Assembly (NCBI GenBank): GCA_018985225.1
Contig: JADGIF010000001.1
Coordinates: 31,617 to 95,616 of the forward strand
Length of the DNA: 64,000 nucleotides
Direction: 5' to 3'
Source: Amoeboradix gromovi
Taxonomy: Eukaryota > Sanchytriomycota > Sanchytriomycetes > Sanchytriales > Sanchytriaceae
Positions within the stretch are counted from its first letter, which is position 1. Each line of letters opens with the position of its first letter. Below are positions 12,739 through 62,927 of this stretch, piece by piece. The notes under the pieces are model-generated. The model worked only from the letters and a program-made list of their open reading frames with translations, was not told where the DNA came from and searched no databases. A program made the position numbers and the translations under genes.

Positions 12739-14520
12739 TTATTCCTCTTTCTTGAAGTACAGCTGTTTTACCCAGTTTATAATCCCGGTTAACAGTGAAT
12801 TATGCTTTGAAGATTTTATCAAAATCTGCTCAGTTTCGTTGTTTTCACTTATCTTATCAGCTAGTATTTGTACGGTTTCTTGGACTTTTGAAAGTTGTGA
12901 TTCAAACTGCTGTATTCCGAGTCTAGTTTGTTTTAGTTTCTTTGAATTATCCTCGTTATTTATCATTATTTTACTTTGAACCCCTAATAATCCATTTACA
13001 ATCTTCTCATAGTATTCTATATTTGACTTTTTTAGCGCACACTTCTTAGTCAGCTCTTCCTTCTCTAACGCCAGGTCCTTCTCGAGGTGGTTTAAAACTT
13101 CAATATTACTCTCTAGTAAACTTTGCTGGTGGTTCAATGTTGAAAACAGATCATTCAATTCCTCAATTAAAAGGCCCTCGGAAAGTTGCATTCGTTCCTT
13201 ACCTGAGTTCAAGAGCACGCCAATGTCCGTTGTTGAAAAAGTTCTTCTTAATGCTTTAGAATGTTTAATCAGGTTGTCTGTCGATTTTGCCTTTCTGTGT
13301 ACTAGATTTGTATGATTTATAGTGCCGTTATTAATACTAGATGTAATCACCAACGGCTTGGGTACTGATTCAGGGCTTACTAAATTTGGCTGATCGCTTG
13401 CACTCTTTCCGCTGCTTTTTCTTTTCTTAACGAGTGGATTTAAAGGATAAGATAGCGATAGCACTCTATCTGTATCCGGGATTAAAGTTTTGGCATGCAC
13501 ATTCTTGATTAGGGTCTTTCCAAATTCCTTTCCACCTCTCAATAAACCCTCTTGCTGCTTTTCATCTTTTCCCCACAAGAGACCCAATTTCTCTCCTAAC
13601 TGATACTCTAATAGTTCATCTATACTCTCCAATTTGTTATAAAGAACTCTGTGTTGTATTCCGCTGAGGTCTTCCAGTTTAGATTTTATTTTATTTGGTA
13701 TGTGCCTGTTTCTATGTTTTTGATAGGATATATCAACAAGAGACATGGTTTTTGAGTCCAAGAAACCAGTTCTCTTTAGGTCTTTACCTTTTTGATAAAT
13801 AGAAATTGATTTAAAGAAAGATTGGGGATCTGAAAAAGGATCTTTGATAGAACCCTTCAAGATGAAATTGAGTTTATTCTTATAGCTCAATACCTGAGAA
13901 ACAAGTAGAACAAACCATTTTGGAGTGCAGTGCATCACCGATTCATCGCTAAACAGTAAAATACAAGATTGAAAGGAATTAAAGAGCGAGTTACTGAAAA
14001 AAGAACAACTAGGTATACTAATACCAAATATACGAATACTGGTTGATAGTATTAAAAGGATAAGGTCAAAGTACATTCTATAGTTGCTCACAGATAGTTG
14101 CAGTTTGTATAAATGATTCATCTTAAAAAGGGTTGCCTCATTTAACGGTTTTATTGAAAAAGGAATCTTCTCTATAACTGATAGTTTCTGGAGGGTTACA
14201 TAGTCTTGCATTAACTCTAAGTTACAGGCGGCAGATTGAACAATTTTAAAGCTAACGTCACTGAACTCAAAATAGTACAAATTACCATAATCAGTCTTGT
14301 CTATTTTGACATTTGGCAGGGAAGAGATGTAAGGCACATTATTTGTTGGATACTGATACAGTATAACTTCATCTTGTTGATTACCAGTAACAATTAGCAC
14401 CGTTTTAATTTGCAACTGTTGAGACACAAAATCTTCAACGAAATATGCCTGATAGCCATACATTTTAACGGACGGCACGCTGTTGTCTTGATCAGCGAAC
14501 AAAGAAAACATAACGGACAT
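12739..14520 (-). CDS. Stb6-like protein (tentative) with long coiled coil
   Basis: 593 aa from ATG. The N-terminal 45 residues (GYQAYFVEDFVSQQLQIKTV, then IVTGNQQDEVILYQY) follow the N-terminal domain of fungal Sin3-binding proteins Stb2/Stb6. The block LNFILKGSIKDPFSDPQSFF, then SISIYQKGKDLKRTGFLDS, also fits that family. A hydrophobic patch lies near residues 145-185. The C-terminal 160 residues are strongly coiled coil. In yeast the family binds the Sin3 corepressor. The match is partial, so the function is uncertain. Confidence 0.48.
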   Translation of the reverse strand: MSVMFSLFADQDNSVPSVKMYGYQAYFVEDFVSQQLQIKTVLIVTGNQQDEVILYQYPTNNVPYISSLPNVKIDKTDYGNLYYFEFSDVSFKIVQSAACNLELMQDYVTLQKLSVIEKIPFSIKPLNEATLFKMNHLYKLQLSVSNYRMYFDLILLILSTSIRIFGISIPSCSFFSNSLFNSFQSCILLFSDESVMHCTPKWFVLLVSQVLSYKNKLNFILKGSIKDPFSDPQSFFKSISIYQKGKDLKRTGFLDSKTMSLVDISYQKHRNRHIPNKIKSKLEDLSGIQHRVLYNKLESIDELLEYQLGEKLGLLWGKDEKQQEGLLRGGKEFGKTLIKNVHAKTLIPDTDRVLSLSYPLNPLVKKRKSSGKSASDQPNLVSPESVPKPLVITSSINNGTINHTNLVHRKAKSTDNLIKHSKALRRTFSTTDIGVLLNSGKERMQLSEGLLIEELNDLFSTLNHQQSLLESNIEVLNHLEKDLALEKEELTKKCALKKSNIEYYEKIVNGLLGVQSKIMINNEDNSKKLKQTRLGIQQFESQLSKVQETVQILADKISENNETEQILIKSSKHNSLLTGIINWVKQLYFKKEE

Positions 14521-14585
14521 GCTCTGTGAAAAGTAGCCTGGGAGTAAAAGGGGACGAAAAAAGAAAAAGAGATGTTGAATTTTTG

Positions 14586-14738
14586 ATGTCTACATTTCTG
14601 CTAAAAAGGTGCTCAAATTATCATGCGCAAATCTTGTCACAGTATTACACAAACATCGAAGCCATCATTAGCGTCAGTATACTCAGTAAAAGTGTTTATG
14701 ATAACGCGAAGCTTGTGCTTATCAAGATGGGTGTATGA
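14586..14738 (+). CDS. Small ORF, 50 aa, hypothetical
   Basis: An ATG-started ORF (MSTFLLKRCSNYHAQILSQY...) between two divergently transcribed genes. The frame is open upstream to a GTG at 14526. No family was recognised. It may be a real small gene or chance. Confidence 0.28.
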   Translation: MSTFLLKRCSNYHAQILSQYYTNIEAIISVSILSKSVYDNAKLVLIKMGV

Positions 14739-15427: not shown

Positions 15428-15440
15428 TAAATAGGTCATA

Positions 15441-15950
15441 ATGTCTCATTCTCACTTTTCTAGTATTGATTTTTATTTATCGACTTCTAAGTACGACGAT
15501 AGAAAAATCCGCTTCAACTGCTATGTAGACGAATTGGAAGTGTTAGAAGAGAAAATGACAAAGTTTAATTCATCCACTGAGAAATTCGGAATATATACAA
15601 GCGCCTTTCAGTCCAATATAGAAAGGGTCAAAAAATATATGAGCTTGAATAGCTTAAAGAAAATTGATTCCAAAATTACAAGTCCAACAGAGGATGAACC
15701 GTCTGTAGCATTGAGGGATGAAAAGCACTATTTAGAAGAAGGCTATTCTTGTAGCTTTTGCAGTTCTACACCAACTGAATTAAGTGAAGAATATGAACTT
15801 GATGAGCTTCAAGATTTTTTTGAAAAATGTATACTGCAAAGAAAGGAACAAGAACAGGAAAAAATGAGGACCCTGCTTAGAAAATTTACCCTGGGAATAT
15901 ACTCCGCAAACATGCTTGCTTTGTGCATTTCTCTTTACTTAGTTTTATAA
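15441..15950 (+). CDS. Hypothetical tail-anchored protein, 169 aa
   Basis: ATG start 13 nt after the preceding stop. The protein is charged and helical, with a small Cys cluster (YSCSFCSS) near residue 110 and one hydrophobic segment at the very C-terminus (FTLGIYSANMLALCISLYLV), the pattern of a tail-anchored membrane protein. No family was recognised. Confidence 0.55.
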   Translation: MSHSHFSSIDFYLSTSKYDDRKIRFNCYVDELEVLEEKMTKFNSSTEKFGIYTSAFQSNIERVKKYMSLNSLKKIDSKITSPTEDEPSVALRDEKHYLEEGYSCSFCSSTPTELSEEYELDELQDFFEKCILQRKEQEQEKMRTLLRKFTLGIYSANMLALCISLYLVL

Positions 15951-15972
15951 GAATAAATATTTTAAAGTATAT

Positions 15973-16361
15973 TAGACCCATTCTGACAAAATGTCCTCAT
16001 TTCTAAATAGAAGGAACAACTAAAAACCACACTATGAATCCAACAACTTCTTGTCATCAGATACGAAAGTTTATCAGGAAAAAGAAGGGGTTTATTGTGA
16101 AGATGACAGATGAAAGGAAGACATCCAAATGCTGCCTTGTTTGTGAACAAGACGACTATAAATATCAAGGCGGTATATGAAAATGGTTATTGGCTGAGAC
16201 ATTGCAACATATGCTCAAGTGCTAATCAACCAAGCTATTTTGAAAGAGATATTACCGGTGCATTTTTCATATTGAAAAAGGCTGAAAGGCATACTATGAG
16301 ACTGACACATGTTTGGAGGAGCTCTCCGACTTAAAGTTGGGGCTTTTTTAAATTGGGTCCA
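15973..16361 (+). mobile_element. TIR element, family A copy 1, with TnpB/Fanzor-like C-terminal remnant
   Basis: The left end TAGACCCATTCTGACAAAAT and the inverse of the right end (TGGACCCAATTTAAAAAAGC) are imperfect terminal inverted repeats. About 389 bp. Inside, an ORF at 16034-16180 reads KFIRKKKGFIVKMTDERKTSKCCLVCEQ (residues 12-38). A +1-shifted frame at about 16180-16290 continues with WLRHCNICSSANQ and then YFERDITGAFFILKKA. TSK-C-x2-C, then C-x2-C, then RD-x2-GA is the order of the zinc ribbon and RuvC-III motifs in TnpB and Fanzor nucleases. The two halves are in different frames, so the gene is broken. The element ends 29 nt before the prefoldin-3 ATG. Confidence 0.7.
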
Positions 16362-16390
16362 TTTCTAGAAATTACCTCCTGGTGTATCGC

Positions 16391-17540: not shown

Positions 17541-17841
17541 TGGGACACCAAATATAAAACTAGACCAAGTCGTCTTTAAAGTAGGTACTCCATAAGGAGG
17601 AAATACTATTATTAATAAGAGTCCTTCTTTCAAACCAATTTTCTTTCATTAATGTCATTCCCCTCTTTAAAATAAAACAAGATGACCCACTATCTCTTAT
17701 ATATAAGATCTCTGAGTGTCTAAGAAAAAGGTGCAACCAATCTGATTAATTTAATGTAATTTGCTATCGGTTAACACACACTTGATATAATGATTCAAAC
17801 TGTATCAGAAAGTTAGTCTAGTTTTTATATTTAATGTCCCT
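17541..17841. mobile_element. Non-autonomous TIR element, family B copy 2
   Basis: The left end TGGGACACCAAATATAAAAC and the inverse of the right end (AGGGACATTAAATATAAAAA) form the same TIR as the 12.3-kb copy. About 301 bp, no coding capacity seen. Internal similarity to that copy includes the shared TTTCTTTCATTA, then CCCCTCTT and AAAAGGTGCA blocks. It ends 33 nt before the LYRM7/MZM1 ATG. Target duplications are not clear. Confidence 0.75.
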
Positions 17842-23973: not shown

Positions 23974-24729
23974 GAGGCATGCAACAACAAAGTGACCTCA
24001 TCATCGTTTAAACAAACCTTTTTCGCATCCCTATTATTAAAAAATTTACAAAAATAATTCGACTTTATTATTTCCATGATAAACCTCAGAAAATAAAATA
24101 ATTCTGGTAAGATCTAAATACCAGGAAACAAAAGTTAAAAGATATCAAGAGTGGTGTAAAAGCTTCCAAACCGAAATTGAAGATGCCAACAATCAGGCTC
24201 TTCCTTTAAATTAATAAATCATATATCACAAGTAATTGAATTATATCTCTCCACTCACTATACCTAGTGGAGTTTTGTAATTTAACAAAGGTGTGTAAAT
24301 ATGTTTTTGGTCTATGACAAATGGCTTGAAATCATCGGAACCTGAATATTCTATATATAAAGACATCAGCGATAAAAAGTACTAATTTGCACTCAGAAAC
24401 TGCTCTAAAATTAGTTCAAGAGTAAAGAAGGACGAAAGACATTGATAGAATGTAATAGATCATTTCGTAATCAGATGTCTACAAGCTGTGGAACTTGAGG
24501 AAAAGCAATCTGAAGAATTGCGCGTGCAAAAACTGTTATTTACAAGTAGATACAGAGACCGTAACGGTAGCGAGTAAGATACGCATTGAATCCACGCATC
24601 AATATTTGTTCTTATCTGACGTTTTCCGGTGAAACCAGTTATAGATGTAGCGGGTCGATGACACTGCCACATTTCTGTGGAAATTCTTGGTATTATCATC
24701 AGTCAAGTTTTACATAGGAGCTGCTCTAC
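23974..24729. other. Gene-free interval with a short hairpin
   Basis: About 750 nt. A perfect 7-bp stem (CTCCACT...AGTGGAG, 24249-24272) is followed by TTTT. I could not match it to a tRNA, snRNA, RNase P, SRP or snoRNA consensus. A 79-codon minus-strand ORF at 24460-24699 looks like chance. This interval holds the 5' leaders of SPA2 and the CS-domain gene. Confidence 0.4.
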
Positions 24730-50411: not shown

Positions 50412-50741
50412 GAGATCCAATTTCAGAAAATATCCCCAAATTCTAGTCGGAGGACCTCTTAGAAAGATGTGTCAGTCCAATAATATGCCATCAAGCTTTC
50501 TCTCAATATGAAAAATGCACTGGCAAAATATCTTGGCTGATTAGCACTTGAGCATATGTTGCAATATCTCAACTGATAACCATTTTTGATATTCTGTCTT
50601 GGTGATTGTAATGACGTCTTGTTCACAAACAAGGCAGCATCTGGATGCCTTTCTTTCGTATCTGGTGACATTATAATGGGAGTGTGTCTTCTAAGTGTTC
50701 CTCCTACCTGGAAATGAGGACAATTCGTCAGAATGGGTCCA
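50412..50741 (-). mobile_element. TIR element, family A copy 2 (reverse orientation)
   Basis: The left end GAGATCCAATTTCAGAAAAT and the inverse of the right end (TGGACCCATTCTGACGAATT) match the TIRs of the other copies. It is flanked by AGATAT on both sides (50406-50411 and 50742-50747), a clear 6-bp target duplication. On the minus strand it reads ERHPDAALFVNK, then YQLRYCNICSSANQPRYF, with the RD-x2-GA part deleted. 330 bp, no intact gene. The right end is 16 nt before the PIG-X-like ATG. Confidence 0.82.
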
Positions 50742-53423: not shown

Positions 53424-53510
53424 CTCGGTTAACATAACGAAATTCTTTTTTGGCAGAATGTTATCGGACTTCGTATGAGTTTATGAAGTAACAAATTTTA
53501 GGCTCTAGAA

Positions 53511-53583
53511 GGGCTTGTGGATTAATGGTTATATCGTCTGACTTCGAATCAGAATGCTCGGGGTTCGAATCCCTGCTGGCCCT
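53511..53583 (+). tRNA. tRNA-Arg (anticodon UCG)
   Basis: Cloverleaf: acceptor GGGCTTG/CTGGCCC (one mismatch), D-arm with AATGGTTA loop, anticodon stem TCTGA/TCAGA with loop CTTCGAA (anticodon TCG), T-arm CGGGG-TTCGAAT-CCCTG. A TTTT tract follows directly (pol III terminator). No intron and no encoded CCA. It reads CGA codons. Confidence 0.95.
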
Positions 53584-53613
53584 TTTGAGGATCCATTTTA
53601 TAATTATTGATAT

Positions 53614-62283: not shown

Positions 62284-62927
62284 GAGACTCATTCTGAAAA
62301 AATGTCCTAATTTCCAAATAGGTGGAACGCCTAGAAACCACACTAGGTTACCCATTATCATTAATTCATCATACCCAACACAACAAAGAAACAAAAAGAG
62401 CAAAAAAGACGATAATGACGTACTAGGATAAACAAAGACAACAATTCAAAATCACCACATCCAAATCATATTAAACTACAATTAAGAGAATACGCGCAAG
62501 TATATCGTCACATTCCTGCACAATCTTTCTATCTATCAAGTGGTATCTGGAAACAAAAAACATCTCAGGATATCCAAATTACCAAGGCTTCTAAAATAAT
62601 GTTCAAAAACATTTCTTACATGACTTTCAACCCAGACACACTGAAATGAAATCATAATGAAATCGAGAAAAGAAATATCGAATGGAAGAAAAAGGCGCTA
62701 TGTAGTGGTATGCTGGGGTGGTGGACATTTAGACAGAATGTGAAAATGGTTATCGTTTGAGATATTGCAACACATGCTCAAGTGCTACTGAGCCAAGCTA
62801 TTTTGAAAAAGATACTGCCAATGCATTTTCATGTTGAGAAAAGGCTTAATGGCATATTATGCGACTGAGACATCTTTCCAGGAGGTGCTCCGACTTAGAG
62901 CTGGGGACATTTTCTGAAATTGGTCCC
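62284..62927 (+). mobile_element. TIR element, family A copy 3, longest copy
   Basis: The left end GAGACTCATTCTGAAAAAAT and the inverse of the right end (GGGACCAATTTCAGAAAATG) are the family A TIRs; AAAT flanks both sides. 644 bp. Besides the C-terminal remnant (RYCNTCSSATEPSYFEKD) it keeps more internal sequence, with an open stretch at about 62457-62649 (HIKLQLREYAQVYRHIPAQS...) absent from the shorter copies and perhaps an earlier part of the same broken protein. It fills the whole gap between two divergent genes. Confidence 0.75.

Follow-up and report, generated by a model that had tools for sequence, protein, structure and literature searches.

A chytrid fungus is already known to contain ghost Fanzor elements, whose inverted repeats resemble those of the complete Fanzor elements of its genome and which lack a working open reading frame (ORF). 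The ghosts of the SPu-1 element in Spizellomyces punctatus are ∼550 nt long, occupy 134 loci and lack the Fanzor ORF, which the complete copies in that genome (∼2.1 kb) possess; CA stands upstream of the left repeat in complete and ghost elements alike, SpuFz1 requires a CATA motif, and in human cells guide RNAs of the ghosts were functional with SpuFz1 (Saito et al., 2023, PMC10432273). Within the open-access literature searched we found ghost Fanzor elements in this paper only, which treats those of S. punctatus and compares the ghost loci of three more species in a figure legend. A putative TA duplication has been noted for SPu-1 (Bao & Jurka, 2013, PMC3627910), and in Fanzor-only elements, such as SPu-1 and that of the ascovirus SfAV, the inverted repeat and the duplication are predicted to form part of the guide-RNA scaffold (PMC3627910; PMC10711439). 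Fanzor1 also occurs in Sola2-type elements of Dictyostelium fasciculatum and Polysphondylium pallidum, and the order [TS][TS]-x2-C4 zinc finger, then RD, is a motif of Fanzor1 and TnpB proteins (Bao & Jurka, 2013, PMC3627910).

Here we analyse a small inverted-repeat element (the target copy) in a stretch of 64,000 nucleotides of the Amoeboradix gromovi genome, hereafter the window (C111:31617-95616 of an assembly of 6.78 Mb in 366 contigs). The target copy is a dead, non-autonomous derivative of a Fanzor1 element. It belongs to one of two short families, A and B, both of which have inverted repeats that resemble the ends of complete Fanzor elements in the genome, no working ORF, and a short conserved motif upstream of the left repeat only.

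Families A and B in the window and the genome

The window holds three copies of family A, the target copy included, and two of family B (Table 1). A search of the genome with the target sequence returned 82 candidate places, of which 40 were scored; the 39 places other than the target copy share 70-82% identity with it over the main match. Family A elements are mostly 290-395 bp long, with a longer subfamily of ∼650 bp (the third copy in the window and L090), and alignment of the 40 copies shows that they are bounded by imperfect inverted repeats starting with GRGACCCA. The arms visible in the target copy itself (15975-15990 and 16344-16359) are 75% complementary, and the aligned copies extend them to a longer, imperfect inverted repeat. 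With up to three mismatches allowed, the left-end 22-mer (15975-15996) occurs three times in the window, compared with a mean of 0.00 in 100 shuffled sequences. Family B, with 588-591 candidates in the genome (40 of them scored), is apparently the commoner of the two.

Table 1. The target copy, its parts and the related short elements of the window (positions counted from the first nucleotide of the window).
Feature	Position	Strand	Remarks
Target family A element, end to end	15973..16361	+	389 bp; differs by 11.6% from a 26-copy majority sequence
Left inverted-repeat end, target copy	15973..15996	+	
Right inverted-repeat end, target copy	16338..16361	+	A few bases missing in the target copy
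Left host flank GTATAT	15967..15972	+	Family A left-only motif [AG]TA at -6 to -4; putative TAM-like role
First half of the Fanzor1 C-terminal coding relic, with the E-x2-TS region and the first zinc-ribbon C-x2-C	16025..16153	+	One frame
Fanzor1 C-terminal coding relic, second half (second C-x2-C, RD)	16188..16280	+	Another frame
Right end, candidate 3' part of a guide RNA	16252..16365	+	Folding z -1.89 (9 of 200 dinucleotide shuffles as good)
Second family A copy	50412..50741	-	330 bp; flanks ATATCT/ATATCT
Third family A copy, of the long subfamily, whose middle differs	62284..62927	+	
Family B short element, Fanzor1 C-terminal relic	17542..17840	-	299 bp; left flank ACAAAA
Family B long element, internal deletion of the 1.66-kb Fanzor element L092	12283..12732	-	450 bp; flanks ACATTT/ACATTT

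The target copy begins 22 bp past the stop of a frame at 15435-15950, and the long family B element begins 6 bp past the stop codon of a 616-aa frame (12739-14589, minus strand). A Fanzor1-type left end with 6 mismatches in 28 positions is found at 23974, and a piece of a further family, C, at 24413-24508. Family C (L001 1236-1833 and at least 13 near-full-length relatives in the regions examined; ∼600 bp, 75-92% identity, sharp ends) keeps a C-terminal fragment of an IS607-type TnpB and accounts for some of the PF07282 matches in the genome, of which 150 were scored among 342 candidates. Two family A copies, L014 and L017, have 37 bp of identical left flank and different right flanks, which may reflect flank exchange, a longer left end or an assembly join. 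The only tRNA gene reported in the window by ARAGORN (bacterial settings) is a tRNA-Arg (anticodon tcg) at 53510-53584.

Fanzor ancestry of family A

The preliminary description of this DNA, made from the letters and a list of ORFs, had read a TnpB/Fanzor-like C-terminus, shifted in frame between its halves, inside a small element with terminal inverted repeats, and had proposed a profile search on six-frame translations of all family A copies. We built a profile from six Fanzor C-termini of the same genome, none of them from family A (L021, L091, L092, L093, L022 and P0002), and ran it against six-frame translations of 40 family A copies, with 1200 decoy frames as a control. The profile matched 33 of the 40 copies at E < 1e-3 and 36 at E < 0.1, with the best frame on the plus strand in all 36; the best of the decoy frames reached E 1.1. 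Two plus-strand frames of the target copy match (E 2e-8 and 3.3e-8), and these are the two sides of the frame shift noted earlier: the peptide TDERKTSKCCLVCEQ lies in frame 16007-16180 and the peptides WLRHCNICSSANQ and YFERDITGAFFILKKA lie in frame 16107-16334, the two frames being mutually out of register. Place, strand and peptides thus agree with the preliminary description, as do the inverted-repeat ends of the element. A tblastn search with the longer relative L091 as query gives a match at 16025-16153 of the window (E 8e-7).

At C250 lies an open frame of 273 aa that shares 43% identity with residues 18-111 of the family A consensus protein and 28% identity with the 748-aa Fanzor1 frame at C351 (described below). 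T-S and all four zinc cysteines are kept in an alignment of seven sequences, one of which is the family A consensus, and the Fanzor1/TnpB order of [TS][TS]-x2-C4 zinc finger followed by RD can be read in the target copy, spread over two frames, and also in the consensus. The RuvC-I aspartate (DPG), kept in the longer relatives C351 (VDPGIK) and L092 (IDPGVK), has been lost by deletion from family A, whose members are therefore nuclease remnants and no longer nucleases; the earlier reading of the target copy as a frame-shifted relic holds on both counts.

The target copy was identified as Fanzor by way of its longer relatives, and Pfam alone would have missed it. PF07282 (TNB domain, cut-off 26.3 bits) gives 13.9 bits on one of the bare target frames and nothing on the other, and 12.3 bits on the family A consensus; the target copy is absent among the 150 scored PF07282 matches in the genome (342 candidates), and a PDB search with the consensus gave no match. 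Three of the six profile members are likewise under the cut-off (L091, 21.3 bits; L092, 24.3 bits; L093, 15.9 bits), and L021, P0002 and L022 are above it. We regard the Fanzor ancestry of family A as firm, and the nuclease type of the target is Fanzor1. Of the outcomes that had been named as contrary to this reading, namely no similarity to Fanzor or a consensus encoding a different transposase, neither occurred.

Longer Fanzor elements and the origin of the short families

At C351 a 2.2-kb element (1590 to ∼3807 of L021), with ATAT on both sides, a left end GGGACATGCAATGACATT and a related right end, holds one protein, a Fanzor1 predicted from an uninterrupted frame of 734 aa. We call it a Fanzor because of its PF07282 score of 36 bits (cut-off 26.3) and its motif order, DPG ... 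E-x2-TS-x2-C4-RD. An AlphaFold2 model of this Fanzor from a five-row alignment had a mean pLDDT of 37 and was not used. A relative at C39 is 72% identical, has two stops within the match and scores above the PF07282 cut-off. The preliminary description had suspected an active parent elsewhere in the genome; longer parents do exist, and one of them, with the uninterrupted 734-aa frame of C351, is a candidate for such an active parent. Like the Fanzor-only elements SPu-1 and SfAV (PMC3627910; PMC10711439), the C351 element has Fanzor1 as the sole gene between its inverted repeats, but it is distant from them in sequence, and a PDB sequence search with its protein matched no Fanzor chain.

Both ends of the 1.66-kb Fanzor element L092 are matched by family B, which we therefore take to be an internal-deletion derivative of an L092-type element. 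Short B copies keep ∼57 bp of the left end of L092 and its last ∼167 bp, the long B element of the window keeps ∼190 bp on the left and ∼190 bp on the right, and L093 keeps ∼290 and ∼270 bp respectively, the left part being sometimes longer than the right. For family A the parental match is mainly at the protein level and in the ends. Its ends resemble, without being identical to, those of the L021, L088 and L091 elements; the left end at C39, GGGACATCCAATGACAAAGTGCCCTCAT, is similar to that of family A and nearly the same as that of L091 (3 mismatches in 28). The left flanks of the longer Fanzor elements show no single clean common motif. Both families are internal-deletion derivatives that keep the 3' end of a Fanzor gene.

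Other genes were met in the same survey. Close to the Fanzor gene of C351 lies an ornithine decarboxylase gene; the protein has relatives at 75-79% identity, and its best named relatives, at 45-47%, are from chytrids. C218 carries an IS607-type pair (L007/L028), in which a serine recombinase (PF00239) frame overlaps the start of a TnpB frame; the latter has HTH_OrfB and TNB domains, and its best PDB match is 'TnpB-like protein L79', a mimivirus protein. At L022 (C9), a Fanzor1 that matches solved Fanzor1 chains (best E 1.6e-15) lies beside a DDE_3 transposase, an arrangement like that of Mariner-type Fanzor elements (PMC3627910). An IS607-type identity was rejected for family A, which has inverted-repeat ends and a Fanzor1-type tail, IS607-type elements having the serine recombinase TnpA and no inverted repeats; Helitron and plain zinc-finger readings were also set aside.

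A conserved motif on the left flank only

Element ends were oriented by internal sequence alone, and ends that could not be oriented were excluded. ACA at -6 to -4 precedes 32 of 39 left ends of family B, compared with 4 of 42 right ends read outward (p 1.4e-11). Of the 39 left flanks, 37 have C at -5 and 38 have A at -4, while -3 and -2 vary, so the motif belongs to the host DNA. The corresponding motif of family A, [AG]TA at -6 to -4, is present at 28 of 41 left ends versus 2 of 28 right ends (p 2.9e-7); it was read from the same list in which it was counted, and was then fixed before the hold-out copies were used. These came from ten further regions per family, with a looser end threshold, and one B left end that could not be oriented and at least one ambiguous A right end were dropped. 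The asymmetry recurs in the hold-out set, with ACA at 6 of 9 left versus 0 of 10 right ends of family B (p 0.003), and [AG]TA at 5 of 9 left versus 0 of 7 right ends of family A (p 0.034; without L133, which overlapped DNA already used, 5 of 9 versus 0 of 6, p 0.044). The extended left motifs are ACANNT in family B and [AG]TANNT in family A, and we infer a parallel between CA plus TA in Spizellomyces and AC (or [AG]T) plus ANNT here.

Target-site duplications and empty sites

Sola2-type Fanzor1 elements have inverted-repeat ends and AT-rich 4-bp duplications (AWWT; PMC3627910), and the C351 element, flanked by ATAT/ATAT, may be like them in this. Most short A and B copies, in contrast, are without matching duplications. 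The 4-bp flanks are identical in 4 of 29 pairs of family B (1.5 expected by shuffling, p 0.057) and in 0 of 37 pairs of family A (2.1 expected; some right ends are mis-called in the list), and in 0 of 9 B pairs and 0 of 6 A pairs of the hold-out set, compared with matches in 45% (B) and 28% (A) expected if the flanks decayed as the elements did. Longer flank matches occur in single copies, ACATTT in the long B element of the window and ATATCT in the A copy at 50412-50741. A scan of other lengths and offsets in family B (180 combinations) gave a best z of 3.2 with 0 of 29 exact matches, and scans on smaller or mixed copy sets gave weak signals only.

A search with joined flanks for empty sites within other repeats of the regions examined returned 22 spanning hits. 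Eighteen of these come from L054, a single insertion into a family C copy, and the left end of this insertion is damaged; the remaining four reflect mis-called ends or a neighbouring family B end. The rarity of flank matches could result from flank exchange, from insertion free of duplication, or from chimeric joins in the assembly.

Folding of the right ends and selection on the frame

The majority right ends fold better than their dinucleotide shuffles in family A (z -2.04; 7 of 200 shuffles as good) and in family B (z -3.59; 0 of 200). The right end of the short B copy in the window folds no better than its shuffles (z +1.29), and RNAalifold predicts no consensus pair for the 30 right ends of family A and 3 for the 29 of family B, a lack of pairs that would also be expected from neutral decay. 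The conserved noncoding end with a guide RNA for which the preliminary description had looked has indirect support only, from the one-sided flank motif and the foldable majority right ends, and none from a structure conserved among copies.

On the protein side, third-position changes make up 36% of the shared and 32% of the private changes in family A. The shared changes show no excess at third positions, which makes it improbable that the C-terminus is maintained as a protein. The synonymous excess has an odds ratio of 2.0, compared with 3.0 in one of the two wrong frames.

Families A and B as probable Fanzor ghosts, and the alternatives

We favour, with a probability of about 0.6, the reading that families A and B are Fanzor ghosts that would carry guide-RNA ends without the nuclease; a guide-RNA role of their right ends is likely. 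The ancestor would have been an inverted-repeat transposon encoding Fanzor1 alone, which lost its middle and retained part of its left end together with the stretch from the 3' end of the Fanzor gene through the right end. In known Fanzor1 elements this 3' end, including the inverted repeat, is part of the guide RNA, with the guide read from flanking DNA. The short element would probably supply a guide-RNA scaffold and ends, as the Spizellomyces ghosts do, with nuclease and transposase supplied from elsewhere in the genome, and cutting beside the left motif (ACANNT for B, [AG]TANNT for A) would favour retention or spread of the element. The guide RNA, its use in trans by a Fanzor and the role of the motif are presumed parts of this account.

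As in the SPu-1 ghosts (PMC10432273), we see short inverted-repeat elements without a Fanzor ORF beside complete copies, in many copies, with a motif on the left only and a right end like that of the complete element. Unlike those ghosts, families A and B retain a C-terminal Fanzor piece, have ACANNT or [AG]TANNT as their motif, comprise several families, and are known from DNA alone.

The same elements might be plain MITEs, internally deleted and moved in trans by a transposase, with the Fanzor tail left over from the deletion and the flank motif reflecting the target preference of the transposase. We consider this a possible, though on the whole doubtful, explanation. It accommodates the inverted-repeat ends, an ANNT-like pattern on both sides that recalls the AWWT duplications of Sola2-type Fanzor elements, the B copies whose left part is longer than the right (so that 3' retention is not extreme), and the lack of conserved RNA structure in the right ends of both families. 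Target preferences of such transposases are usually symmetric, however, and the motif here is one-sided in two families and in their hold-out copies although the ends are nearly symmetric; that matching duplications are rare also speaks against a plain MITE. The left-only motif could, alternatively, be an insertion preference of an asymmetric transposition complex. No transposase came to notice between ends of this kind in the regions examined.

Two further readings concern the coding relic. That the short open frame is a functional small zinc-ribbon protein under selection seems to us very improbable: in the family A majority sequence a nearly open stretch extends from the left end as far as a stop within the right end (in two frames, with one uncertain joining column), and its first residues resemble the N-terminus of the C351 Fanzor1, but third positions show no excess, the synonymous excess is larger in a wrong frame, and none among the matches listed spans all 128 residues free of stops. 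Still harder to credit is a chance resemblance, or a zinc finger belonging to another transposase, even with bare frames under the Pfam cut-off, a consensus that has no PDB match, and three profile members (L091, L092 and L093) that themselves fall under the PF07282 cut-off. The decoy-controlled search excludes it, given the Fanzor nature of the profile; three members of that profile (L021, P0002 and L022) score above the PF07282 cut-off, the last of them also with matches to solved Fanzor1 chains, and the longer open relatives share the zinc ribbon, two of them with DPG, and have similar left ends.

Implications

The ghost reading can be extended, tentatively and with odds that we consider poor, to the genome as a whole. 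Family A, the short and long forms of family B and perhaps the IS607-type family C would then together provide guide-RNA ends by the hundred, on which the products of very few intact Fanzor1 genes would act in trans, and cutting guided by RNA, rather than a transposase alone, would set both the left motifs and the orientation of the copies that persist. If this were true, the near-absence of matching duplications would mean flank exchange, or arrival by break repair. This genome combines several candidate ghost families with an intact Fanzor1 gene and with a one-sided motif countable in dozens of copies, so that the role that Fanzors play for transposons becomes testable.
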